DNA of 47,303 nucleotides from a virus, in IMG/VR virus record IMGVR_UViG_3300048919_000278, positions 1 through 47,303 of that record. One strand, given 5' to 3'. Below, piece by piece: positions 1,150 to 47,269 of this stretch (the stretch's first letter is position 1; each line of letters begins with the position of its first letter). The translations under genes were made by a program, and so were the position numbers. The notes beneath the pieces were generated by a model, which did no database searches, was not told the DNA's origin, and saw nothing but the letters and a program-made list of their open reading frames with translations.

Positions 1150-1164
1150 TGGCGGAGACGGAGG
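1150..1164. other. attL core (direct repeat of the tRNA-Ser 3' end)
   Basis: TGGCGGAGACGGAGG is identical to 47177-47191. The flanking bases differ on both sides (C/A before, C/G after), so the identity is exactly 15 bp. The copy covers the tRNA CCA end, discriminator base, acceptor stem and start of the T-stem. It marks the left prophage boundary, 135 bp after the host oxidoreductase gene. Confidence 0.9.
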
Positions 1165-1431: not shown

Positions 1432-1665
1432 ATGCCGCTGATCGACACCGCTGCGCTGAGTGACGACGATCTATCCGGTTATGACTGGTTGATGGTTCAA
1501 GCCGCCGGCGCCCGCCTTCAATTTGCGGAACTACCGATCCGAATATGGAATGACGTTTTGGTCGAATTGGGGAGGCGTGGGCTAGTCCAGGCACTCGAAG
1601 GTGGTCTTGAAGATGTGACCACGGCACGGATTAAGCGCTCATACCCATTGCCGGACTTACCGTGA
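1432..1665 (+). CDS. Hypothetical prophage protein, 77 aa
   Basis: The ATG at 1432 is chosen because AGGAGA stands a few bases upstream. The open frame extends back to 1189, but that part runs through the putative integrase arm sites and has low-complexity, non-protein-like composition. The product begins MPLIDTAALSDDDLSGYDW and is acidic at the N-terminus and basic at the C-terminus. I do not recognise a domain. It is the first gene of the left-end operon; its TGA overlaps the GTG of the next gene (GTGA). Confidence 0.6.
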   Translation: MPLIDTAALSDDDLSGYDWLMVQAAGARLQFAELPIRIWNDVLVELGRRGLVQALEGGLEDVTTARIKRSYPLPDLP

Positions 1666-2165
1666 CCAGAAAACCCACCTCAAGTAGGGCGGCTCTGAAG
1701 CTCCACAAGCCCAAGGTTTCCACTCCGGTCGCCGATGTCAATTATGCGCTCAGGATCGAGACGTTGCGCCCGAGCTACTCTTGCCGGCTGGTGACGACTG
1801 ACCAAAGCGCAGAGCTTATCGAGACCAGCGAATACACCATCGGCGCCGTATGCCTTGCGCCTGCCAAAGTGGCGGGACGCGCCGTACGGGTCCGCGTGAT
1901 TGGAATCGAGCGGCAGCACGGCACCAAATATCATAAAGACGCCGTTGTAGGCGTTTTAACCTTACGGGGAAAAGCTTCCGAGCTTCTCTGTTGGTTGCCT
2001 GACGGGTCGCTCCATTGGGCAATGCAGCACGCGCTCGGCGGCCGCTACCGCTTCATCGTCGCGACAGCAGAACCGATCAAGCACGGGTATGCAAATGTGC
2101 ACGCTATTTCGTTCGAGCCGCATCTGGACCCAGAAGACTTCCCCGGAGTAGACCAACATGGCTGA
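1662..2165 (+). CDS. Hypothetical prophage protein, 167 aa
   Basis: The GTG start overlaps the previous stop (GTGA), which suggests translational coupling. The N-terminus is basic (TRKPTSSRAALKLHKPK), and the rest alternates short strands and glycines as in a small beta-rich fold. No known motif is visible. It belongs to the left-end operon between attL and the LuxR-type regulator. Such accessory operons at prophage ends often carry superinfection or defence functions, but nothing in this sequence shows that. Confidence 0.6.
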   Translation: MTRKPTSSRAALKLHKPKVSTPVADVNYALRIETLRPSYSCRLVTTDQSAELIETSEYTIGAVCLAPAKVAGRAVRVRVIGIERQHGTKYHKDAVVGVLTLRGKASELLCWLPDGSLHWAMQHALGGRYRFIVATAEPIKHGYANVHAISFEPHLDPEDFPGVDQHG

Positions 2166-2211
2166 GCCGCCGATTTCTGGTAGTTCCGATCAGCGAAGCT
2201 GGCAGCGGTGA
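2158..2211 (+). CDS. 17-codon ORF linking two genes
   Basis: A short frame starts at ATG 2158, inside the end of the preceding gene, with GGAG nine bases upstream. It encodes MAEPPISGSSDQRSWQR and stops at a TGA (2209-2211) that overlaps the GTG start of the next gene. The following gene has no Shine-Dalgarno of its own. The mini-ORF therefore probably carries ribosomes across 40 bases rather than making a functional peptide. This reading rests on spacing and overlaps only. Confidence 0.4.
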   Translation: MAEPPISGSSDQRSWQR

Positions 2212-2435
2212 CGGAGAACTACACACCACCGCCAGGCGTCTATTCGCGTATCGTTCGCAAGATACGACGCGCCCTTCGGAATGAGACCGGCGTGGCGTTG
2301 TCCTACGAAGAAGTCGTCGCTCTGCTGCATTCGGACTTTTACCCGATCCTGGCGGAAGCGGAGCGCAAAGAACTGATGTCGCTGCATATGGCGCGGGATC
2401 ATCAGCAAGCTCAGACAGCCGATGAGCCGGCGTAG
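2208..2435 (+). CDS. Hypothetical prophage protein, 75 aa
   Basis: The GTG start overlaps the stop of the 17-codon ORF. The product (MTENYTPPPGVYSRIVRKIR...) is predicted helical, with a basic N-terminal helix and charged repeats near the end (AEAERKELMSLHMARDHQQ). No known domain is recognised. It is the fourth ORF of the overlapping chain that starts at 1432. Confidence 0.55.
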   Translation: MTENYTPPPGVYSRIVRKIRRALRNETGVALSYEEVVALLHSDFYPILAEAERKELMSLHMARDHQQAQTADEPA

Positions 2436-2459
2436 CTCCTATTTGGAAAGGGGCTCTAT

Positions 2460-2702
2460 GTGACTGCACGCGCTCGCTTCAAGCAAGCCGATCTCGTCCG
2501 AGCGGTGAATGCCTTCAAGGCAGCAGGGCTCACCATTGCTCGCGTTGAGATCGACCCAAATGGAACGATCACGATAATCCCCGAGCCGAATGGGCCGGGC
2601 TACACAAGCCCTTCCGGCGACGATGCGTGGGATCAGGCGATCAAGGAGTTTTCTGCCGCCCGTCAAGCCGGGCAGGCAAGGCGCCAGCGGTCTAAGGGGT
2701 GA
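2460..2702 (+). CDS. Small conserved prophage protein, 80 aa
   Basis: GTG 2460 follows GGAAAGGGG by a normal spacing. The core, FKQADLVRAVNAFKAAGL followed by VEIDPNGTITIIPE, resembles small proteins that in many alphaproteobacterial prophages sit just upstream of an integrase: a helix, then a strand ending in a DPxGTIxI motif. Their function is unknown. Here no integrase follows, because the integrase is at the far right end. The next 99 bp (2703-2801) hold no convincing gene. The unusual context may mean rearrangement or an old integrase loss. Confidence 0.65.
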   Translation: MTARARFKQADLVRAVNAFKAAGLTIARVEIDPNGTITIIPEPNGPGYTSPSGDDAWDQAIKEFSAARQAGQARRQRSKG

Positions 2703-2801: not shown

Positions 2802-3164
2802 TTAATCCGCGCCGACCTCATCCTTGCAGGGGCTGTCGTCGTTGGGCTCGCCAGACGTCAACTGCAGGCAATTGGAGCGGGCTTGCTGCCACGCTGCGTA
2901 TAGCTGTGCCCGTTGCTGGGCGATCGCCGCTCGATCAGTGCTCACGATATATGGTGCACCGCAAGGCTCGTCGATTATGGCGATCGCTGCCTTGAGCACT
3001 GCTACCGTATGCTCGAGCGACGCGAGCGCACCCATGGTGGGTGCGGGGCTTTTGACGATCCTCTGATAGGCCTCGCACTGCGCCGTGACCTGTGCGGATG
3101 CGGCATCCGACAGCCCGGCAATGGCGAGGGATGACGCTATCGAAACCATGAATATCTTGTTCAT
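2802..3164 (-). CDS. Small secreted protein, 120 aa
   Basis: The frame is open upstream to 3350, but the start chosen is ATG 3164. It is preceded by AGGGG at good spacing and opens with a Sec signal peptide, MNKIFMVSIASSLAIAGLSD, ending near ASA-Q. The mature part is helical with four cysteines (CEAYQ, EPCGAPY, SNCLQL, PCKDE), which could form two disulfides in the periplasm. I recognise no family. The gene is divergent from the LuxR-type regulator; a 23-bp element shared with the other secreted-protein gene lies 113 bp upstream. Probable lysogenic cargo. Confidence 0.65.
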   Translation of the reverse strand: MNKIFMVSIASSLAIAGLSDAASAQVTAQCEAYQRIVKSPAPTMGALASLEHTVAVLKAAIAIIDEPCGAPYIVSTDRAAIAQQRAQLYAAWQQARSNCLQLTSGEPNDDSPCKDEVGAD

Positions 3165-3276: not shown

Positions 3277-3299
3277 GCGCGCTTCACCCGTTCGGGGGA
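3277..3299. promoter_or_regulatory. 23-bp repeat, copy 1, in the luxR-type intergenic region
   Basis: This sequence is identical over 23 bp to 4935-4957. Its core is the palindrome CCCGTTCGGG. It sits between the divergent secreted-protein gene (start 3164) and the LuxR-type regulator (start 3360/3363), so it could act on either. It is a candidate operator. Its distance upstream of a secreted-protein start matches that of the second copy (113 and 99 bp). Confidence 0.5.
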
Positions 3300-3359
3300 A
3301 CGGTGCGGCTTGTTGAATCGAATGAACCGGCTTAATTTGCTCCGGGGCACAGGGGAAAC

Positions 3360-4463
3360 GTGGTGATCGATCTCGATGGGATTTACGCGTCGATCGACGA
3401 TGATAGCGCGTTTGAATCATTGGCCGACCGGATCGCCGCCGCGTGCGGCACTCGGTCCGCTATCTTTGTCGAATTGACGTCGGCGGGAACCGCGTCCTTT
3501 CTACAGATGTGCTATTGGGGCGAGGCATTCCGGGCCGCGTACACGGAACACTTCGTCGACGTCGATCCATGGACGCAGACCGCGATTGATGTTGGCCGCT
3601 TTGGTCGCGCCGCAGCGCTCGACAGAGCGATGCTTCCCGAAGAGTTCGTGCGGACGGCAATGTACAATGATCTATTCCGCGCCATGGGCGATGACACGGG
3701 GCGGTGCCTCGGCGTGATGCCGGCGCTGGGACGTGAAGGGCTGATGATGGCGATCCATCGTGCGGCCAGCGATGCTCCGTTCGGCGTGTGGGACGAGCAA
3801 AGGCTAGACGAGGTCTATGGCCATATTCACCGCGTCATGTCGCTGCGCAAGACCTTGGCTCAGGAGCGCGACAAGGGTGCGCGGCTCCAGGACATCGTCG
3901 ATCGGGCTGGCGGAGCGATCCTGCGGCTTGATCGCAACCTGCGGGTCGTGGCGCTCTCGGCCGCCGCCGAATGGTTGCTCGGGAAGCGCGACGGCCTGTT
4001 TCTGCGCGATCAGCGGCTTGTCTCGCCGCCCCGTATCGAGATGGCGCTGAAAATTGCCGTCGCCGCCATCATAGACAGGACGGGGCAACCGCGCACTGCG
4101 CTGCTTTGCCCGCGCCCATCCGGATTCAGTCCCTATCGGCTACGCCTATTGCCGGCCGGCTTTCATGGAAGCGCCGGTGTGCTGTTGCAGATCGACGATC
4201 CGGAAGAGGGGCCGGACCCCGATTGGCGGATCGCATTACGCGACACCTACGGCTTGTCAGCGATGGAGGCAGATCTCGCGGCGCGGCTACTGGCTGATCG
4301 TTCACTTGACGAGATCGCAGCCCAGCGCGGCGTTACGCGCGAAACGCTTCGCTCCCAGCTGAAATCCGTGTTTTACAAGACGGGGGTAACGCGGCAGAGT
4401 TCGCTGGTCAGGTTGCTGGCGACCTTCCCCGTCGTGCGAAACGGCGGAAATCCCAGCGGTTGA
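3360..4463 (+). CDS. LuxR-family helix-turn-helix regulator, 367 aa
   Basis: The C-terminal 65 residues form a GerE/LuxR-type DNA-binding domain: GLSAMEADLAARLL, then SLDEIAAQRGVTRETLRSQL and a final helix FYKTGVTRQSSLVRLL. The N-terminal 290 residues have no clear sensor family; they resemble the N-terminal part of other sphingomonad LuxR-type regulators. Two tandem GTG codons (3360, 3363) can start it; AGGGG favours 3363 by spacing. It is flanked by two minus-strand secreted-protein genes with a shared 23-bp element upstream, which makes it their likely regulator. No autoinducer-binding signature is visible. Confidence 0.8.
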   Translation: MVIDLDGIYASIDDDSAFESLADRIAAACGTRSAIFVELTSAGTASFLQMCYWGEAFRAAYTEHFVDVDPWTQTAIDVGRFGRAAALDRAMLPEEFVRTAMYNDLFRAMGDDTGRCLGVMPALGREGLMMAIHRAASDAPFGVWDEQRLDEVYGHIHRVMSLRKTLAQERDKGARLQDIVDRAGGAILRLDRNLRVVALSAAAEWLLGKRDGLFLRDQRLVSPPRIEMALKIAVAAIIDRTGQPRTALLCPRPSGFSPYRLRLLPAGFHGSAGVLLQIDDPEEGPDPDWRIALRDTYGLSAMEADLAARLLADRSLDEIAAQRGVTRETLRSQLKSVFYKTGVTRQSSLVRLLATFPVVRNGGNPSG

Positions 4464-4491
4464 CCGCATATGACATCTTAAGCCGGAAGAA

Positions 4492-4564
4492 AGTGATCGT
4501 CCAAAGGCGCGGCGGCCAGCATGTGTTCAAATAGCCGGGCGAGCCACTGCGGAAGACGATCACT
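4492..4564. repeat. 10-bp inverted repeat in the intergenic region
   Basis: AGTGATCGTC (4492-4501) is exactly inverted at 4555-4564 (GACGATCACT), with 53 bp between. The repeat sits between the convergent ends of the LuxR-type gene and the second secreted-protein gene. It lacks the U-tract of a terminator. The role is unknown. Nothing else is visible in 4464-4578. Confidence 0.35.
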
Positions 4565-4578
4565 CAAATCAATACAAT

Positions 4579-4836
4579 TCAATATTCTCCGGCAGCCTTG
4601 GCCTCTTCGCAGCTGTACCCTTCAAAAAATGACGTAGTGATATGAAGATTTCTATATACTTTTGTGCACCAATCGCGTGTCGCTATGTGGCACCGTTTAC
4701 CCATGAAAACAACGCTGACCACACATGCGCCCTTGGGATCGTCGTCTGAATCCTGCGCAACTGCGCTGATGGGGGAAAGTGCCATCATCATGGCCGATGC
4801 TGACGCCAGAATCGCGCTCCGTTTCGAAACCTGCAT
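4579..4836 (-). CDS. Small secreted cysteine-containing protein, 85 aa
   Basis: ATG 4836 is preferred over ATG 4848 because GGAGG, which overlaps the upstream ATG, stands five bases before it. The first 28 residues are a Sec signal peptide (MQVSKRSAILASASAMMMAL, then SPISAVAQ). The mature peptide is about 57 residues with four cysteines (GACVV, KRCHI, DWCTK, YSCEE) and would be stabilised by two disulfides in the periplasm or outside. No family is recognised. The second copy of the 23-bp element lies 99 bp upstream. Like the 2802-3164 gene, it is a likely lysogenic conversion product. Confidence 0.65.
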   Translation of the reverse strand: MQVSKRSAILASASAMMMALSPISAVAQDSDDDPKGACVVSVVFMGKRCHIATRDWCTKVYRNLHITTSFFEGYSCEEAKAAGEY

Positions 4837-4934
4837 ATCAACCTCCATAATGGGCCTTTCGCTCGGTGCTGCGCCCTAGACGACGTGCATGCAGAACGGA
4901 AAACCCGAGGCCATCTGTATTGCGAAGGTAGTCG

Positions 4935-4957
4935 GCGCGCTTCACCCGTTCGGGGGA
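4935..4957. promoter_or_regulatory. 23-bp repeat, copy 2, upstream of the second secreted-protein gene
   Basis: This is a perfect 23-bp match to 3277-3299, with the central palindrome CCCGTTCGGG. On the minus strand the element ends in GTGAAGCGCGC, and weak AT-rich stretches about 18 bp further downstream could serve as -10 regions at both copies. It is proposed as a shared operator or upstream promoter element for the two secreted-protein genes. Confidence 0.5.
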
Positions 4958-11188: not shown

Positions 11189-11689
11189 CTATTTCAGTTG
11201 ACTTTTCGACCCATCGCCACCTTTGCGATGACGATTAAACAATTCCATTAATTCATCATCACTTAATCCAGGATTGTTTCTGTCTAATTCATCTATATCA
11301 CGATTTTCTCTTATTATCTTGTCTCTGTTCAAACGACTTCTAGAAGTAAGATAAACTCTTGCAGCGTAATCGGTAAGGTCAACGTTTTCATCTATCAAAG
11401 GAACGCTCGCGCGAAGCTGCTCCTCAAGCATTTGTAATCGTTCTCTGGCGGCCTGCAAACTAACTTCCGCTTTCGACACTTCGTACCGCATTCTGATCAC
11501 CTCGGCAGAAAGCTTTATGAATCCCACCTCATCTGGGTTTTGAAGTGCCTCCTCTAACATGGCGGCAGCTTCCGCCCCAGCCGATCGGCCATTCACGCGC
11601 GCACGCTGAGCGATTTGATCCTTTAAGCCGTCGGGCACGCGGACCAAGATCGTGTCCCACTCGCGGACGGGCTTTTTTCCTGCGTTCAT
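11189..11689 (-). CDS. Arc/Mnt-type ribbon-helix-helix regulator with C-terminal extension, 166 aa
   Basis: ATG 11689 has GAGGTG upstream. Residues 7-50 are an Arc-type RHH domain: KPVREWDTILVRVPDGLKDQ provides the DNA-contacting strand and is followed by two helices. A coiled coil (VSLQAARERLQMLEEQLR) and an Asp/Asn-rich charged tail follow, much longer than the 50-90 residues usual for Arc or Mnt. It shares the signature with the proteins at 11950-12246 and 12330-12509. It is divergent from a fourth RHH gene and probably binds the 11711-11771 region. Confidence 0.75.
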   Translation of the reverse strand: MNAGKKPVREWDTILVRVPDGLKDQIAQRARVNGRSAGAEAAAMLEEALQNPDEVGFIKLSAEVIRMRYEVSKAEVSLQAARERLQMLEEQLRASVPLIDENVDLTDYAARVYLTSRSRLNRDKIIRENRDIDELDRNNPGLSDDELMELFNRHRKGGDGSKSQLK

Positions 11690-11710
11690 TTTCACACCTC
11701 TCAATCCGCC

Positions 11711-11787: not shown

Positions 11788-11967
11788 ATGACTTCCAAGC
11801 AGCCCGGCAGAGTCCTGGTAGGCCTTTCGCCTGCAATCGGCGCGATGCTTCGAGCGCGGGCCAAAGACAACTATCGTTCGATCAGCGCCGAAGCGACCAT
11901 GTTGATTGAGCGGGGCTTAAAGGCCGAAGCCGCCGGAAATGGCAGCAACTCACTTTTCAGCACGTAG
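11788..11967 (+). CDS. Small ribbon-helix-helix protein, 59 aa
   Basis: ATG 11788 has GGAGG five bases upstream. The sequence MTSKQPGRVLVGLSPAIGAM, then ARAKDNYRSISAEATMLIER, has the strand-helix-helix pattern of RHH repressors. It lacks the REWDxxxVRxPDGxK signature of its three neighbours, so it is a divergent member. The last 18 bases overlap the 3' end of the opposing RHH gene. It would act as a dimeric DNA-binding repressor in the immunity module. Confidence 0.65.
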   Translation: MTSKQPGRVLVGLSPAIGAMLRARAKDNYRSISAEATMLIERGLKAEAAGNGSNSLFST

Positions 11968-12246
11968 TCGTTCTAGTTCAGACATGCATTCGTCGATCTT
12001 ATGATCAACATCTGCCATGTTTTGGCGCAGATTAAGGCGCACTGCCCTTAATAGGTTCAGGCGAGTTCTGACAGTAGCAATTTCACCTTCTCTGCCAAAC
12101 TTCAAATTTTTGCTGAGAATTTCAATGATTTCGCTGTTCATTGACTGATTTTTTAGCTGCGCACGCGAAGCCAAAAGATCCTTCATCCCATCAGGAAGCC
12201 TGACGATGAAGCGGTCGTGTTCTCGAATCGGTTTCTTGTCAGTCAT
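11950..12246 (-). CDS. Arc/Mnt-type ribbon-helix-helix regulator, 98 aa
   Basis: The N-terminus KPIREHDRFIVRLPDGMKDL is the RHH signature shared with two neighbours. The second half is a predicted coiled coil (VDHKIDECMSELERLRAEK), as in Mnt, where a C-terminal coil gives tetramers. The gene is divergent from the RHH gene at 12330. Four direct GCATCAC repeats fill the gap, the first only 2 bp from this ATG, so self-repression is likely. The base composition is clearly AT-richer than the structural genes. Confidence 0.75.
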   Translation of the reverse strand: MTDKKPIREHDRFIVRLPDGMKDLLASRAQLKNQSMNSEIIEILSKNLKFGREGEIATVRTRLNLLRAVRLNLRQNMADVDHKIDECMSELERLRAEK

Positions 12247-14729: not shown

Positions 14730-17700
14730 CTATTCGTCCTTGATCTTGCCTGTGGTCAGGCCCTCCATCCAGTCACCCACGCTTTTCGGATCGGCGTCGC
14801 CTCGGCCGAGGTCCACCAAGAACTGCGTGGTGCTGGCCGCCTGGCCCGGCACTAGGCCGGTCAGATAGCCGGTCGTTTCCAGCACGTCCTTGGTGGCGTG
14901 TTCCGTTTCTTCGCCCCGCGCGATTTTCCCCACATCTCCCGCTGTCGTGACGATGCTGTCATAGGCCCGCTGCATAGGCGTGAGGGTCGCCCCGAAAGTC
15001 GGATTGCCAATCGCCTTATTCCACGCCGGCTCGAACAGGTCTCGAACTACCGGAACCGGGCCGAGCGCATTGGCAAGTAGCTTCCGGGCCAACCACTGCG
15101 CCCACCATTCGTCATCGTCAGGGCCGCCATTGCCGGTCAGACTTTGCGAAATCAGGGATGTCAGCAAAGGCGCCACAACTAGCATGACGAAGGCGCGTGA
15201 CGCGAGTTTTGGCAGATTGCGGGGTCGGCGGGAATCTACCCCGCGCGCATCTCGAGCCAACGTGCGCATCCGCTGATACTGCATGGACTGGAAGCTATAG
15301 AACATGGTGATCGACTTGAGAATTTGCCCCCAAGGCCCCGTGCCACGCTGGATTGCCGCCATGTCTTTCGGCGAGCCCGCCCCCTGCGATTGGCGCACTG
15401 CCTTATCGGCCGCATAGACCGCGTCGGCCTCATTTGCCCCGGTAGCAATCGCGTTGGAATAGGCGGCCATCCATGTCGGCACCGATACCAGGCGGTCCAT
15501 ATAGCCGATGGTGTGGAACATGAACTTTTTGGATTCGACCACTTCTCGCGCCAGTTTTCCCACCGGATTGGCGGTGGACATGGCGGCAATCTGCGTGCGA
15601 ATATTGGCGTCCAGCGTGTCCATGCGTGCGCGCAGTTCACCAGACCGTTCCAGCGCGAAGCGCGTCGTTTCGAAGGGATTTGCCGAGAACCGCGCAATCG
15701 CCTTCGCCAGTGCAGCCTCACCGACTACCTCAACTGAGTTGGCGTAACCTGCAATCTGAGTAACCGTTGTGGTCGCGCGCATTGCCATGCCAGTCACCGT
15801 GACATTCGCCCGCAGCTTACCCATCCACTTTCCGGCCCCTTCGTTGCCGGCGCGTTCCATCGCCCAGCTATTGGCGACGAACTTCACCCACGGTCGGAAT
15901 TGCTTGCGAATTTCAGGTCCGAGAGCCGCATCAACCGCGCGGGAGACCCGTTCGCTGGTAAGGAAGCGATTGGCCTGAATCACGGCCTCGCGGTGCGTGA
16001 TGTCGTGGATCACTTCGCCCAGATGTCGGTTGATCACGCCCAGGTCCAGCAACATCGGCGCCGTCACCTTTTCAGCGCGCTCCTTGGTGGCCCGCGCGCG
16101 CGTGGTGGCGCGTGTGTAGTTCGTACCCAGCAGATCGCTTTCCTTGCCGCCGCGCTCCTCCGCGCGGTAATCCCGGCTCGTGTCGTAGATCGCAGGGTAA
16201 TAGCCACCACGCATCGGGCCGTGGGGTGTATCGAATGCGCGCGGCTCGACCTTTTCAGGCGCTACGCCGTTAACGCGCCGCTCCAGTTGCTCTATCGATG
16301 GCCATAGCGTGCCGATCGTGTCCCACACGCCCTGCACGAACTGCCACTCGCCGGCCGTCAGCGTGTCGTTGAGATAGGCCTCAATCGCGCCAGGATTGAT
16401 CCGGTAGCCATCAGCCAGGCGTTGGAAGTTGCCGGCGTTGCCGATGTTCAGCGCCATAGCGACAACCTTGGAGCGCTCAAGGCGCATCGGCCGGCCGGTG
16501 GCCACATCGGTCCAAGGCATTTCCAGCTTGTCGCGCCAGCGTGCCGCGTCCTCGGCCGGCACCGCCTCGAACAGCGCTTTGATCCGGCCATAGTAATCGG
16601 CCAGCATCGCGTTTTCGCGGTCCTGCGCTTCGGCGATCGGCCGGAATGCGATGCGGTTGAACACGCCGTTGGGGTCGCCGCCGTCGAGCCAGTCGAACAC
16701 GGTTTCCAGCTTGAGCAACGAGGCATCAAGCGCCAGGGCATTGGCCTTGATCGCCTCTAGCACCGAGGGGTCGGTCAGGTCGCGCGGCGGTGCGCCCGCA
16801 ATGTTCGACGCCGCCTGTTCAGCCTCTGCTTCAATGTCGCTCCATTTTCGCCGCTCGCCATTGTCGAGCAATTCCTGCTTGAGTCGGCCCAGGTGCATGA
16901 CCTGCTCCACGGCATCGTCCAGCCCCAGCAGGTTCTCGACCGTCAGGCGCGACCAATGCGTGCCGCGAATAGTGGCCTCAAAGCTACGCGGCACGACGAT
17001 TTCTGGCCCACCGGCCTCTTGTTGCGCCGCCCATGCCTCCCACTTGCCCTGACGCTCGATAGACTTCTGCGAACGCGGCCCCATCTGCACTGCATCGAGC
17101 AAGGCGTGCGCCTGTTCGAGATAGTCCTGATCGACCGATTTCATGGTCTTTTTGTCAGCGATCTTGGCTAGGCGATCATGCGCGCGCGTCACCTCGTCAT
17201 AGGCCGCCTTTGCTTCGGACAGCAGCGCAGACGAAAGCATCTGCCGCTGCTTGGCCGTGAATGCCTCATCCATCTTGCCAGCCAGGATCGCCTTTTCAGC
17301 CTCGCGCCCAGCTTTCGCCACGGCCTTGGTATGGCGCTGGATTGCCGCCAGGCTGGCCTGCTCCACGATTACCCCGCCGCGCACCGTCTGACGTGCCCAG
17401 GCACGGGCGACTTGGTACGGCGTGGCCTGCTTCCCGGTGCGCCGGCCGAGATAGCGCAGTTCGGTGGCCAGCAGATCGCCGGCCAGGTCGTTGTTGACGG
17501 CGGTAATCGCCTCCTCCTCGATGCTGCCATCGTTCAACGGATCGTCACCGTGGGCCCGGCGCATTTCCTCGTCGGCAGCATTGTCGATCATGCGCTGACG
17601 CAGGCCGCGCTCGTCCCCACTTTCCTTGGCGGCGAGATGCTGGCGCTGGGCACCAATCAATACCTCGATCATCTGTTGCGCGCTATCGAAGCCTGCCATT

Positions 17701-20700
17701 TCAGCCAGGGCATCGGGGTTCACGCCGCCAGCCTTGTGGAGTGGAGGAACCTGGCGCGGCAACAGATCCAGTACGTCGCGCCCAAACCGATCCTCCAGCC
17801 ATTCACGGTCGATCGGCGTTTCGCGCATCAGGCGCAGCGATTTCAGCAGCGGGGCAGCATCAAGCCGCTGGGCCTCATCGGCGCGCACCACGGCGCGTTC
17901 GTCGTTCCAGGCCTTCGTACGCTGCCGGCGGATCGACGCCATGGTCTTGGCCAGCAGATCGGCATTGGCCTGATCGCGTGCACCTTGGGCAAGCTGGGTA
18001 TAAGCGCCGAATTCAGCGCCCGACATACCCATGGCCTTAGGGTCGGTAATTGCCGGCTGCATCGCCAGCGCGTTCCGCTGTGCTGCGATCTCATCATCGG
18101 TGGCGAGCAGCCGCTCCATCACCTCTCGGATTTCCGGGCTGATCGGCGCGCGTAGGGCATCAACCTTGCGGTAGATCGATAGCATCCAGCCGCGCACGGT
18201 TTCGAACAGGCGAGCCAGACCAGTAGACGGTGCCTTGCCCTCCATCAGGTAGCGCTCGACGCCGCGCGCCCAGTATTCGTGCGCCTCCACCGGGATCGTG
18301 TCGTCATCGGCCAGCGGATGACCGAGAGAGGAAAACCACGCCTTGACCGTATCCCAATCGGCACGCAACTGCTCGCTGGCTTCCGGGTGCGCGGCGTCGG
18401 CGCGCAATTCCTCCAGCCACTGGTGCCCGAATTCGTGGATCAGCGTCGAAGGGTTTCGGCTTTGGAACAGTTCGATGATGCCGCCGCGCCCGTTCTTGCC
18501 AGGGATGAAGCGCCCGCGCGGCCCCTGCGAAACGGCGCCGACCGACATATTGAAATCATCGCCGCTTTTGCTAGATTGCTCATAGCTGCCCGGTTCTCCA
18601 GTTCCGGATTTGTAGCCGGGTGACTCCGGGTTCCGGGCAGTATTATTCTCCGGCAAGACATGATCGTAATAGAAGGTGCCATTGTTCGCCTCGCGGATTG
18701 TCACGTCCACAATCTTGGGCTGCCCACCGATCGTGATGGTGGCGCGCAGGCGATGATAGGCCTTGATCGTGGGCTCGCGGGATGGATCATAGGGCGGCGC
18801 GCTAGAAACCAGTTCCCCGCGCTTGATAATCTCCGGCAGCACGGCGACGGCGCGTAGCTTCTGTTCGTCGCTTGAAAAGGCCTTCATCTTGGCGGGGCGG
18901 GCAAAGACGACATCATGGTTGAGTGCCGCCGACAGGACGCGCGTGCCCTGTAGATGCTCCTTGTACCAATCGACTACGGCCTTGCGCAGATCGGCCCCAT
19001 GCAGGCTTTCCGGCGCAATCTCATCGCCATGCACTTCTACGATCGGATCGGAGGATTGCTCATACCCCTGGTCCGGCGCGCCAGACGTGTATTCGCTGAT
19101 TGCAGCGCGGATTTCAGCATCCTTCATACCGTCGGGATCACGCCCGTTTGCTTCCAGCATCGCACGCAGATCATCAGCCGCCGCGCGTGCCGGGTCGATT
19201 TTCGGCGCTTCGGCATAGCGGGGCTTGCCCGCCAGTTCCTCCCGGATGGCGTCCAGCAGCGTGTTCTGGTCGATCGCGCTTGGCCCGGACTCAAACTGCG
19301 CCGCCTGCAATTCGGGGAAATAGCCAGCATCGATTGCGGACGACAGCGTGGTATCAAGGCCATACTCACCGTTGCCCGACAACGTGCCCACTTCGGTCTG
19401 GCGCGGATCGTAATTGCGGATCAGCTTGCGCCGGCCCTTGATTGGCACGGGCTTCTTGCCCTTGTCGTTCATGTGCCAGCGATCCAGCCCCATGGCCTTG
19501 AGGTCGCCACCCACATCGTTGATGCCGCCGCGATCGTTGATCCATTCCAGCAGGGTCTTGCCCTGTGGGATTTCAGCCGACGCGCGCTTGCGCATGGCAT
19601 GGATCACGGTGTCCCACTGGTCGGCGCGCTGGATTTCCGCAAGGCTCTCCGGCAGCACAGCACGAATCGTTGAACCGAAATCCTTGGGATCGAGCGGCCT
19701 GCCATTGCGTTCGGCGCGCACCGCCGCCCGCAAAACGTCCAGTTCCGCGTAGATGCCAGCCATGCGCGGCGTGAAACCGGCGTTCTGCAGTTCTTGCGTG
19801 CGCGCCTCGACCATGGCGGCGCGCTGATCCTGTTCGGCAGCGGCGGCGCTGTCCTGCTGGCCAACGCGCTCCGATACCTGCTTGATTTCCGCGTCGGCGT
19901 TTTCCTGAAATGCCTGTGCTTCCCGCAGAGACATGCCGCCCGGGCGCAGGCGGATATCGTCCTTGATCGCTGCCCAGGCCGAGGTTCCGGGCAATGCGGT
20001 GAGCGCGAAATCCGATGGCAGCACCACGTCGCCGCCCGTCGCCTGCGCTTCGGCAATCTGGCCCTGATAATCCGCAAAGGGATCATCGAACTGGTCGTAG
20101 CTGTCCGACTGCTGGTAAGCCGTGATCGCATCGGCCGGCACATAGACCTGTGGCGGGATATGGCCGTTCTCGCTCGCGACCCGCAGCAAATCGGCATAGG
20201 CTTCGGGATCACGCTGGCGCAGCGTCGAGCCTTCCGCCGCCTTGGCCATCAGGTTGAGCGCGTGGCCATCCTGAAATGCCTGTATGGCCGCCGCCGCGCG
20301 CTGCCCCAGTTGCTGGCCGACGGCCTCGCGCTGCTGGGACGCAGCCATGCCGAGGGTGTGTTCCAGCGTCGAGATGGTGACATGCGAGAGACCGCCGCCA
20401 ATCAGAGTCTGGATGGCCGTTCCCGCGAGATCGCCCGGCAACTGCGTCGCCAGATCACCAAGGGTCTTATCCTTGTTGGACGGCAGGAACAGCCATGCCG
20501 TAGTGTCTTCGGCCAGCGTGGTGGCTTCTTCGCCGAGCAAGTCGGGAATCTGCGAACGGATATAGCGCGAGAGAATGTTGCGGCCCGACCCGCTGCTATC
20601 GAGAAAGGCCTTTTGCCCCAGGTATTCGCCGCCCGCTTCGGCTGCGGTATCGAGAATGCCATAGACGCTTGCAACCGCCCGGCCGACGCCCTGATCACGC

Positions 20701-21578
20701 GCACGGAAATAGCTTTCGCCGCCTTGTTGGGCAGATGGGACCAAAATGGATGCAATTGTCGCGGCACGCGATGAAAGCCCCGCCGCGCGCAGGCCAATGC
20801 CGCCCAGCATGGTCGCCACCGTCGTGGGCACGTTCTCGACGCCGCCAAGTACCTGCTGCTCAACCCACGCCCCACCTTGCGGGCGCACATAGTTCGCAGC
20901 GTTCTCAAGTCCCTTGTCGGCCATGCGCGGGAGATTGTAAGCCTGCGGCACGCCCATCACGTCCCAGCCCCAGGCGGGAACGGTCGTTACCATGCGGCCC
21001 ATTTGAGCGGTGCCAGCGAGCAAGGCCCCACCAGCGCGCCGAGGACTGGGCAAGGCCTGCGTCGCCTCCTGATCGCCCATCAGCGACGCGGTGAGAGCCA
21101 TAAGCAACGGGGCTGGAGTGCCAGACGGACGGCTGCCTACATCCTGCCGGTCAAAAGCGTCCACGCCGGCCGCAAAGGCCAATACGGGGTTATAGCTCTG
21201 CTTGAGCATACCCCATGCGCTGCCGAGAATACCCAGGCTCCTGGTATCATCGGAAGCTGCTACCGCGCCACGCGGATCGCCTGCTGCCCATTGGCCGATA
21301 GTTGGATGCTGATCGATGAGCTTGCCGAAATTATTCGCGCGTAGCGCCCTTTCAGCATCATCGATCGAGTCCTCGACATCGGCGGGCAGCGTCCCGAGGT
21401 CGCGCGCAGTGCGGACCATACGCGCCATTTGGTCCGGGGCCTGCGTTGAACTGAGGATGTCGAAACGAATCTGGTCCGTGCGCTGGCGCTTGATCGCGTC
21501 GGCGCCAGGACTACCCGTCGTGATGTTCGCCGGGTTGAATTGTTCCGCATAGTCGAAGGGATCGATAGGGCCAGCCAT
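14730..21578 (-). CDS. Giant polyvalent internal virion/ejection protein, 2282 aa
   Basis: This is the largest gene in the window, placed where T7-like phages encode internal core proteins gp15/gp16. Around residues 845-980 a segment resembles a large-polyvalent-protein domain (LPD3-like; TIREANNGTFYYDHVL). Near residue 1048 there is a zinc metallopeptidase motif, HEFGH. The middle is long charged helices. The last 350 residues include a hydrophobic segment near 2130 (FVMLVVAPLLTSLIS) and amphipathic helices suitable for membrane penetration. It probably enters the cell with DNA. The start ATG 21578 lacks a ribosome site and sits 8 nt after a proposed -10. Confidence 0.75.
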   Translation of the reverse strand: MAGPIDPFDYAEQFNPANITTGSPGADAIKRQRTDQIRFDILSSTQAPDQMARMVRTARDLGTLPADVEDSIDDAERALRANNFGKLIDQHPTIGQWAAGDPRGAVAASDDTRSLGILGSAWGMLKQSYNPVLAFAAGVDAFDRQDVGSRPSGTPAPLLMALTASLMGDQEATQALPSPRRAGGALLAGTAQMGRMVTTVPAWGWDVMGVPQAYNLPRMADKGLENAANYVRPQGGAWVEQQVLGGVENVPTTVATMLGGIGLRAAGLSSRAATIASILVPSAQQGGESYFRARDQGVGRAVASVYGILDTAAEAGGEYLGQKAFLDSSGSGRNILSRYIRSQIPDLLGEEATTLAEDTTAWLFLPSNKDKTLGDLATQLPGDLAGTAIQTLIGGGLSHVTISTLEHTLGMAASQQREAVGQQLGQRAAAAIQAFQDGHALNLMAKAAEGSTLRQRDPEAYADLLRVASENGHIPPQVYVPADAITAYQQSDSYDQFDDPFADYQGQIAEAQATGGDVVLPSDFALTALPGTSAWAAIKDDIRLRPGGMSLREAQAFQENADAEIKQVSERVGQQDSAAAAEQDQRAAMVEARTQELQNAGFTPRMAGIYAELDVLRAAVRAERNGRPLDPKDFGSTIRAVLPESLAEIQRADQWDTVIHAMRKRASAEIPQGKTLLEWINDRGGINDVGGDLKAMGLDRWHMNDKGKKPVPIKGRRKLIRNYDPRQTEVGTLSGNGEYGLDTTLSSAIDAGYFPELQAAQFESGPSAIDQNTLLDAIREELAGKPRYAEAPKIDPARAAADDLRAMLEANGRDPDGMKDAEIRAAISEYTSGAPDQGYEQSSDPIVEVHGDEIAPESLHGADLRKAVVDWYKEHLQGTRVLSAALNHDVVFARPAKMKAFSSDEQKLRAVAVLPEIIKRGELVSSAPPYDPSREPTIKAYHRLRATITIGGQPKIVDVTIREANNGTFYYDHVLPENNTARNPESPGYKSGTGEPGSYEQSSKSGDDFNMSVGAVSQGPRGRFIPGKNGRGGIIELFQSRNPSTLIHEFGHQWLEELRADAAHPEASEQLRADWDTVKAWFSSLGHPLADDDTIPVEAHEYWARGVERYLMEGKAPSTGLARLFETVRGWMLSIYRKVDALRAPISPEIREVMERLLATDDEIAAQRNALAMQPAITDPKAMGMSGAEFGAYTQLAQGARDQANADLLAKTMASIRRQRTKAWNDERAVVRADEAQRLDAAPLLKSLRLMRETPIDREWLEDRFGRDVLDLLPRQVPPLHKAGGVNPDALAEMAGFDSAQQMIEVLIGAQRQHLAAKESGDERGLRQRMIDNAADEEMRRAHGDDPLNDGSIEEEAITAVNNDLAGDLLATELRYLGRRTGKQATPYQVARAWARQTVRGGVIVEQASLAAIQRHTKAVAKAGREAEKAILAGKMDEAFTAKQRQMLSSALLSEAKAAYDEVTRAHDRLAKIADKKTMKSVDQDYLEQAHALLDAVQMGPRSQKSIERQGKWEAWAAQQEAGGPEIVVPRSFEATIRGTHWSRLTVENLLGLDDAVEQVMHLGRLKQELLDNGERRKWSDIEAEAEQAASNIAGAPPRDLTDPSVLEAIKANALALDASLLKLETVFDWLDGGDPNGVFNRIAFRPIAEAQDRENAMLADYYGRIKALFEAVPAEDAARWRDKLEMPWTDVATGRPMRLERSKVVAMALNIGNAGNFQRLADGYRINPGAIEAYLNDTLTAGEWQFVQGVWDTIGTLWPSIEQLERRVNGVAPEKVEPRAFDTPHGPMRGGYYPAIYDTSRDYRAEERGGKESDLLGTNYTRATTRARATKERAEKVTAPMLLDLGVINRHLGEVIHDITHREAVIQANRFLTSERVSRAVDAALGPEIRKQFRPWVKFVANSWAMERAGNEGAGKWMGKLRANVTVTGMAMRATTTVTQIAGYANSVEVVGEAALAKAIARFSANPFETTRFALERSGELRARMDTLDANIRTQIAAMSTANPVGKLAREVVESKKFMFHTIGYMDRLVSVPTWMAAYSNAIATGANEADAVYAADKAVRQSQGAGSPKDMAAIQRGTGPWGQILKSITMFYSFQSMQYQRMRTLARDARGVDSRRPRNLPKLASRAFVMLVVAPLLTSLISQSLTGNGGPDDDEWWAQWLARKLLANALGPVPVVRDLFEPAWNKAIGNPTFGATLTPMQRAYDSIVTTAGDVGKIARGEETEHATKDVLETTGYLTGLVPGQAASTTQFLVDLGRGDADPKSVGDWMEGLTTGKIKDE

Positions 21579-45676: not shown

Positions 45677-47014
45677 TCACCCGGGTCGTCCCGGGCCGTT
45701 GGTAGCGAACCTGATTGGCTGACCAAGATGGATCTCGGGCGGCCAGAAATCCGCGAGCAGCAGCCCAGCCCATTCGCACGCCAGTTCGCGGCGGCGTGGC
45801 ATATAAGCTGCGCGATTATAGGCGCTTTCCGATCCTGATACGCCGTCAGGAATGTGGGCCAGCATCAGGTCGATAATCGCTCGATCGGGTGAGGCGCCCA
45901 GGCTGCCAGCTTCCCGCCATTTGCGTTCCGCCCGTTCATTCATCAGCGTGGAAAAGCCAGCGCGGAAACCGTGTGGCACATGGCGCTGGTAATAGCCGGC
46001 GCGGATTAGCAGGGCGCGCAGCGTGTTTTCCGATATCGGCCGGTGGGGGTGGCGCTCCCCCGGAAATACTAGTTCAAGGTCGCCGGATATCCCGTGCATC
46101 ACGCGCAGCACTGCGACCGCTTCGGGCGCCAGCGGCACAAGATGGTCGCCCTCGATTTCAGCTTTCCGGTTTTCGTCGCCCTTCATCGCCGAGGCAGGAA
46201 TGCGCCATAGCGGCGCTTCCCCGTCCAGGCCCTCAAACTGATCCCAGCGGGCTTGGCGCAGTTCACCAGGCCGGACTGCCGTAAGCGCGAGGAAGCGAAG
46301 GGCGAGCTTCGTCCCCGCCCGGCAGCGTTCCGCCTCGCAGTCGATCAGCATTTGCCGCAGTTGTGGCAGCGTGGTGACGGCGGGCTGTTTCTTTGCCTTC
46401 GGCTTCGGCTGGAGCGCCTTGCCCATGCCGGCAGCAGGATCGCTTTCGGCCAAGCCGGCACCGATCGCGTAGACAAAGACGGACGAGATGCGAGAGCGCA
46501 GGCGGTGCGCGGTTTCGACGGCGCCGCGCCGCTCCACCTTTTCGAGCGCAGCCAGGACCGTAGGAGTGCGGATACTTGAAATGGGCAAGCTGCCGATCGC
46601 GGGGAACACATTTGCCTCCAGGCTCGCTAGAACGTCAGCAGCGTGTACCTTGCTCCAGCGCTTGCACTGCTTCTCCCACCATCGCCTCGCGACGACTTCG
46701 AACGTCGATGAGTTGTCCGTGGTGTTGGTTTCGACCGCCAGCTTGCGCTGCACGCCAGGGTCGATGCCCTGGCGCAACAATTCCTTCGCCGCGTCGCGCT
46801 GCTTCCGTGCTTCCAACAGCGTGACGGCGGGATAGGAGCCTAGGGCCAGCGTCTTCTGTTGCAGGGCACCGGTTGCCGCTGATCGGTAGGAATAGTTCAT
46901 GCGCCAGAGCCGGCTGCCCGTCGGCTGTACCTGCAAATATAGCTGGCCAGAATCGGTGAGCCTGTAGGATTTATCCCTAGGCTTGGCCGCCTTCACCTTC
47001 GCGTCGTTGAGCAT
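45677..47014 (-). CDS. int: P4-type tyrosine integrase, 445 aa
   Basis: The start MLNDAKVKAAKPRDKSYRLT matches the N-terminal Arm/DUF4102 domain of P4-like integrases, so ATG 47014 is chosen. In-frame ATGs at 47050 and 47062 fall inside GATACCATG repeats (putative arm sites) and are less likely. Catalytic residues: Arg about 246 (AVRPGELRQ), His-x-x-Arg about 347-350 (HGFRAG), His about 386 (LAHIPDG) and Tyr about 398 (YNRAAYM). It integrates at the 3' end of tRNA-Ser, 115 bp upstream, in the usual orientation for this class. Confidence 0.9.
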   Translation of the reverse strand: MLNDAKVKAAKPRDKSYRLTDSGQLYLQVQPTGSRLWRMNYSYRSAATGALQQKTLALGSYPAVTLLEARKQRDAAKELLRQGIDPGVQRKLAVETNTTDNSSTFEVVARRWWEKQCKRWSKVHAADVLASLEANVFPAIGSLPISSIRTPTVLAALEKVERRGAVETAHRLRSRISSVFVYAIGAGLAESDPAAGMGKALQPKPKAKKQPAVTTLPQLRQMLIDCEAERCRAGTKLALRFLALTAVRPGELRQARWDQFEGLDGEAPLWRIPASAMKGDENRKAEIEGDHLVPLAPEAVAVLRVMHGISGDLELVFPGERHPHRPISENTLRALLIRAGYYQRHVPHGFRAGFSTLMNERAERKWREAGSLGASPDRAIIDLMLAHIPDGVSGSESAYNRAAYMPRRRELACEWAGLLLADFWPPEIHLGQPIRFATNGPGRPG

Positions 47015-47020
47015 CGCCTC

Positions 47021-47063
47021 GATACCATAGATCGGCAGGTCCGATACCATGCCGGATACCATG
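47021..47063 (+). promoter_or_regulatory. Putative right integrase arm sites
   Basis: GATACCATA (47021-47029) and two GATACCATG copies (47043-47051, 47055-47063) lie between the integrase start and attR, in the same orientation as the left copies at 1224-1244. They overlap the probable integrase promoter or start, so integrase bound here may repress its own gene. Confidence 0.5.
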
Positions 47064-47176: not shown

Positions 47177-47191
47177 TGGCGGAGACGGAGG
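47177..47191. other. attR core
   Basis: TGGCGGAGACGGAGG is identical to attL at 1150-1164. It forms the 3' end of the intact tRNA-Ser, so integration restores the tRNA gene. It marks the right prophage boundary. Confidence 0.9.
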
Positions 47192-47269
47192 GATTCGAAC
47201 CCTCGGTACCGGATTTACCAGTACGACGGTTTAGCAAACCGTTGGTTTCAGCCACTCACCCACGTCTCC
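47177..47269 (-). tRNA. tRNA-Ser (anticodon GCU)
   Basis: On the minus strand, GGAGACG at the 5' end pairs with CGTCTCC near the 3' end. The anticodon GCU is at 47235-47233 within an AACGGTTTGCTAAACCGT hairpin. A long variable arm marks a class II tRNA, and GTTCGAATC is the T-loop. CCA is encoded (47179-47177). It is intact and functional in appearance, and serves as the integration target. Confidence 0.95.

Follow-up and report, generated by a model that had tools for sequence, protein, structure and literature searches.

A repeated palindromic element as the probable operator of a PAS-LuxR-type regulator beside two secreted-protein genes in a sphingomonad-type prophage

The 23-bp element that occurs twice near one end of this prophage quite probably serves as operator for a LuxR-type regulator whose gene lies between the copies. 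The adjacent genes for small secreted proteins would be under the control of that regulator, with activation as the favoured mode. The window, that is, the whole stretch of 47,303 bp that was analyzed, holds this cassette in the following arrangement:

2802..3164, minus strand: secreted-protein gene 1, 120 aa, signal-peptide-like start MNKIFMVSIASSLAIAGLSDAASAQ, four cysteines, orphan
3277..3299, minus strand: element copy 1, core TCACCC-GTTC-GGGGGA at 3284-3299, between the divergent secreted-protein gene 1 and LuxR gene
3360..4463, plus strand: LuxR-type regulator, 367 aa, GTG start, candidate binder of the element
4579..4836, minus strand: secreted-protein gene 2, 85 aa, signal-peptide-like start MQVSKRSAILASASAMMMALSPISAVAQ, four cysteines, orphan
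4935..4957, minus strand: element copy 2, with its palindromic core at 4942-4957, upstream of one gene only, secreted-protein gene 2

The perfect recurrence of the sequence at 3277-3299, as originally noted, is borne out: GCGCGCTTCACCCGTTCGGGGGA is identical in both places, and identity ends sharply at both edges, beyond which the flanks are unrelated. No other direct repeat in the window is as long: it has 23 bp, compared with a maximum of 17 bp in 30 third-order Markov simulations. No third copy was found in the window with up to three mismatches, and 100 shuffles also gave none. Read on the minus strand, the element is TCCCCCGAACGGGTGAAGCGCGC, which holds the imperfect palindrome TTCACCC-GTTC-GGGGGA (general form TTCACCC-N4-GGG(T/G)GA), one mismatch away from a perfect TCACCC-N4-GGGTGA. 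The symmetry that had been claimed for the core is therefore present, but it extends more widely than CCCGTTCGGG, to which it had been assigned.

The two copies had been placed about 100-113 bp upstream of minus-strand genes for small, cysteine-containing secreted proteins, with a LuxR-type gene in between, and all of this agrees with the sequence. Copy 1 is separated by 112 bp from the ATG (3164) of the 120-aa open reading frame (ORF), and copy 2 by 98 bp from the ATG (4836) of the 85-aa ORF. Copy 1 is at the same time part of the LuxR promoter region, its centre being 68 bp from the GTG. Weak A+T-rich, -10-like stretches, TTACTTAAT and AATACAGAT, can be seen by eye on the minus strand some 15-24 bp downstream of both copies. 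A second palindrome, CCGTTC-GGGG-GAACGG (3288-3303), overlaps copy 1 and runs beyond it; copy 2 lacks this palindrome, which may be relevant to the promoter of the regulator itself.

The products of the two secreted-protein genes do not resemble each other. As had been anticipated, they belong to no known family: neither has relatives in IMG/VR, Pfam, NCBIfam or PHROGs, and product 1, the only one searched further, has none in plasmids or in 298 genomes of one sphingomonad family. Gene 2 has a low G+C content (51%) and a GGAGG ribosome site. An AlphaFold model of protein 1, made from a single-row alignment, is all-helical and of low confidence (pLDDT 60), too weak for a fold search. Both products are probably exported, disulphide-bonded proteins of the lysogen; small periplasmic or exported four-cysteine proteins is as far as their sequences lead.

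The regulator consists of an extra N-terminal domain, a PAS-like middle (residues about 186-280) and a LuxR/NarL-type helix-turn-helix (HTH; about 290-355). When a profile of its subfamily was compared with known structures, the HTH matched VraR (1.9e-7), GerE (2.5e-6) and VpsT (2.9e-6), as well as NarL. The GerE family was found in 6 of 11 subfamily members, while the window protein itself gives a weak Sigma70_r4 match only; PAS_4 was found in five of the 11 (best 4.6e-7), the PAS domain of the window protein being assigned by homology only. None of the 11 matched the autoinducer-binding domain (PF03472) at E 0.05, and none has a receiver domain. Because of the HTH, PAS and GerE family matches and the lack of an autoinducer-binding match, the protein is best called a PAS-LuxR one-component regulator with an extra N-terminal domain. 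In its AlphaFold model (two-row alignment, pLDDT 53), which is too weak for a fold search, only the PAS and HTH parts are of moderate confidence. The N-terminal half carries DPW and GDDT motifs which, by eye, are vaguely like sensory LuxR domains.

Evidence for a regulator-operator pair comes from sphingomonad chromosomes. The exact 16-mer CCCCCGAACGGGTGAA occurs in only 2 of 298 genomes of the family of Sphingomonas montana, each time with the gene of a LuxR homologue (39-44% identical to that of the window) no more than about 65 bp away. An independent search with the window regulator ranked the same two genomes first among the 298 (39% and 44% identity), and this coincidence of exact site and best homologues is strong evidence for the pairing. 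Nor is the element a common host repeat, as might have been feared: 391 genomes drawn from the order gave two with the 16-mer, namely the S. montana site again and one in-frame coding match with no LuxR relative nearby, which is taken as chance. In S. montana (L012; L068), the site directly follows the LuxR homologue and precedes a large RTX/cadherin-like gene; in the other genome (L067), it lies 62 bp before the LuxR homologue, and an RTX-type gene is on the other side of the regulator. The distance from site centre to gene start is 127 bp both for copy 1 and gene 1 and for the S. montana site and its RTX gene, and 78 bp in L069 and L070, so that agreement between loci is partial. L067 is an exception, as its oriented site reads towards the LuxR gene and not towards the RTX gene, the start of which is 353 bp away.

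Searches with parts of the element in other collections gave little besides. A 17-mer had three matches in IMG/VR, all in unrelated sequences and taken as chance, and the perfect palindrome was found there in at least 120 stretches, none of which encodes a relative of the regulator among the 80 listed. An 18-mer gave 22 matches over GTDB contigs, most from unrelated organisms; of eight contexts inspected, only that of S. montana looked meaningful. Protein-pattern scans of IMG/VR and of GTDB contigs found no relatives of the regulator, and those described here came from whole-genome searches.

More distant homologues carry cleaner TCACCC-N4-GGGTGA sites, in most cases flanked by the regulator gene on one side and a secreted- or surface-protein gene on the other. 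Neighbourhoods were read in ten stretches of 10-14 kb plus sixteen more. Among 39 loci scanned, a site of this kind adjoins the LuxR gene in eight (the window, L038, L039, L040, L041, L046, L083 and L103, the last five being further homologues), matching at 11-12 of 12 positions, a level reached by at most 2 of 100 shuffles; the palindromes in L040 (TCACCCATATGGGTGA) and L041 (TCACCCGGACGGGTGA) are perfect. By hand count, the site borders a secreted- or surface-protein gene in seven of the eight, window included, the genes being those for RTX proteins, beta-propeller-like proteins, an outer-membrane-type protein and the two small proteins of the window. In L076, no secreted gene starts next to the site. 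Over all neighbourhoods, 19 of 26 genes with their start towards the regulator counted as secreted-like, and 58 of the 233 remaining genes did (Fisher P about 2e-6); the signal-peptide rule behind these counts is crude and takes at least one probable transporter (L109, by sequence) for secreted. The nearest LuxR relative (G441, L107; 55% identical) has no recognizable site beside its gene despite a glutamine helix, and close two-mismatch matches in its genome fall in coding frames. Coding frames hold most such matches in relatives generally, so a wider regulon is not proposed.

Across the subfamily (L067-L076, L107-L122), LuxR genes are repeatedly found beside genes for RTX, curli-like (L073, by eye), beta-propeller-like (L069, L070) or outer-membrane-type proteins, the last sharing the motif TGGTLGIGPE[LV]GYR in L071, L072 and L114. 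Several loci have palindromes of their own; for instance, TCATCAGTTCTGATGA stands beside both LuxR genes that flank one giant gene in L113.

The type of site appears to vary with the recognition helix. In aligned helices, regulators with TCACCC sites have a Gln-type helix (TLR[ST]QLK and like), while a His-type helix (TVR[ST]H[LI]QH) goes with the TCATCA-type palindromes of four others (L112, L113 twice, L116). The TCATCA-type sites came from an open, exploratory palindrome search beside distant homologues and are thus suggestive only, which makes this second class a lead. On the tree, the TCACCC label requires at least four changes, that is, several gains or losses.

Taken together, these features suggest a mechanism in which a dimer of the PAS-LuxR regulator would bind TTCACCC-N4-GGG(T/G)GA through its HTH. 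From copy 2 it would control secreted-protein gene 2, and from copy 1 secreted-protein gene 1, probably acting also on its own gene across the divergent region. Judged by eye, the -10-like stretches would set the centre of the palindrome near -43. This is the usual position for a LuxR-type activator, and activation is thus the most likely mode; it would be triggered by whatever the PAS or N-terminal domain senses.

The regulator could instead be a repressor at the same operator, keeping both secreted genes off in the lysogen until a signal arrives or induction occurs. A position near the promoter suits occlusion as well as activation, and copy 1 precedes the gene of the regulator itself, an arrangement seen in autorepressed systems. 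Nevertheless, an activator accords better with the estimated location near -43 and with the 78-127 bp that separate site and gene start in relatives, and most LuxR/NarL-type one-component regulators are activators, which makes repression rather unlikely. Since a perfect repeat of 23 bp is longer than an operator needs, the copies may also have arisen when a piece of promoter was recently duplicated, in which case a host factor and not the LuxR protein would read them, and the closest relative without a site would fit such an origin. This seems improbable, as identity stops sharply at 23 bp between unrelated flanks, and the core stands beside homologous regulators at two separate chromosomal loci and nowhere else in the 298 genomes.

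It is very doubtful that the regulator acts as a phage quorum-sensing receptor, sensing AHL of the host and directing lysis or lysogeny by way of the element. The autoinducer-binding family is missing from all 11 subfamily members, no copy of the element is near the lysis or repressor genes of the window, and the chromosomal relatives adjoin secreted-protein genes. These observations stand against the N-terminal motifs mentioned above and the existence of phage-encoded LuxR receptors of this kind (PMC6456758). Least credible is a structural repeat of phage or host (att-like, an uptake or recombination site, or a terminator) with no relation to regulation, in spite of the G+C-rich, partly palindromic nature of the element. 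The att repeat is elsewhere (1150 and 47177), no T-run follows the element, an Rfam search of the window matched only a tRNA, and host-type genomes lack multiple copies of the exact core, a distribution that already contradicts this explanation.

An operator of the LuxR-type regulator, the preferred reading, also has precedents. PimM-type PAS-LuxR regulators of Streptomyces have a 16-bp palindrome, CTVGGGAWWTCCCBAG, in the -35 region of target promoters, and their targets are mostly pathway-specific and local (PMC9774167). The window regulator likewise combines PAS with a LuxR HTH, and its palindrome has GGG/CCC arms. In contrast, its operator is TCACCC-N4-GGGTGA, it has the extra N-terminal domain, it is sphingomonad-type and prophage-borne, and its predicted targets are secreted or surface proteins. 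By analogy, it would most likely work as the Streptomyces class does, at a palindrome in the -35 region. The phages phiARM81ld and Apop offer another parallel, a LuxR receptor gene on a temperate phage of about 47 kb (PMC6456758). Although the window also has a LuxR-type regulator gene on a temperate phage, their receptors have an AHL-binding domain, which was not found in the window subfamily, and the targets here appear to be two neighbouring secreted-protein genes.

CsgD and VpsT, the latter among the PDB matches of the HTH, likewise have a LuxR-type HTH and control surface and matrix components, and the chromosomal relative L073 is, by eye, beside curli-like genes. However, they have a receiver-type domain, where the window subfamily has PAS and the extra domain instead. 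The CsgD box may be similar to the element. Closest are the sphingomonad chromosomal homologues (L068 of S. montana, and L067), which share a homologous regulator, the identical 16-mer and a secreted-type neighbour; there, a single site accompanies large RTX-type proteins, whereas the window has two copies and two small cysteine proteins.

The prophage setting that had been assumed for the cassette is supported by the following features:

1150..1164, no strand assigned: attL, a 15-bp copy of the 3′ end of the tRNA-Ser gene
45677..47062, minus strand: tyrosine integrase, Arm-DNA-bind_3/Phage_int_M type, P4-type, 115 bp from attR
47177..47269, minus strand: tRNA-Ser(GCT), holding attR at its 3′ end (47177-47191)

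As the 15-bp repeat of the tRNA-Ser 3′ end is present at both ends and the integrase adjoins attR, the prophage spans about 1150-47191. The cassette is inside these bounds, at the end far from the integrase and beyond the holin and endolysin genes. The prophage end opposite the integrase is often where lysogenic-conversion or cargo genes are located. To the left of attL, an FAD/NAD(P)-type ORF ending at 1015 is probably host DNA; a search for an empty attachment site by means of this gene found none, giving only homologues of 37-40%, and of those checked not one adjoins tRNA-Ser. The host looks sphingomonad-type.

Because the same regulator-site pair is beside secreted-protein genes in sphingomonad chromosomes, the cassette looks like a real, borrowed module of local control, captured by the prophage and carried opposite its integrase. 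The original interpretation, a small regulon that changes the cell surface or secretes peptides in the lysogen, is thus partly supported: the element co-occurs with this LuxR subfamily, the relatives of which typically neighbour secreted- or surface-protein genes, and peptide secretion is a guess, as both small proteins lack detected relatives. LuxR-type genes on phages (PMC6456758) and PAS-LuxR regulators with palindromic operators are already known. No publication was found on this LuxR subfamily, its operator or its link to secreted proteins in sphingomonads, in a search that most subscription journals were outside of. A more tentative proposal is that sphingomonads have widespread, undescribed local switches, each made of a PAS-LuxR regulator, a co-varying palindromic operator and an adjacent secreted- or surface-protein gene that move as a unit, and that the phage captured one, with which it makes two exported cysteine proteins in the lysogen. 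If so, these proteins might, for instance, block superinfection or alter the cell surface.

In any case, a bare repeat becomes a testable regulator-operator pair, with a predicted binding sequence for a LuxR subfamily that has been little described, and this subfamily is tied to secreted and surface proteins in sphingomonads at large. Should the cassette be active in the prophage, the phage would bring its own controlled export of uncharacterized proteins into the host, with a possible bearing on superinfection immunity or surface change.

Other parts of the prophage deserve mention. Between attL and the cassette (1432-2702, plus strand), there are four small ORFs without family matches, which may form one variable cargo block with it. 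A single ORF of 2,282 aa (14730-21578, minus strand) is long for a 46-kb prophage. Two neighbouring short ORFs on the minus strand (11189-11704 and 11950-12246) have similar starts, KKP[VI]RE.D..[IL]VR[VL]PDG[LM]KD, and are perhaps small Arc-type DNA-binding proteins.
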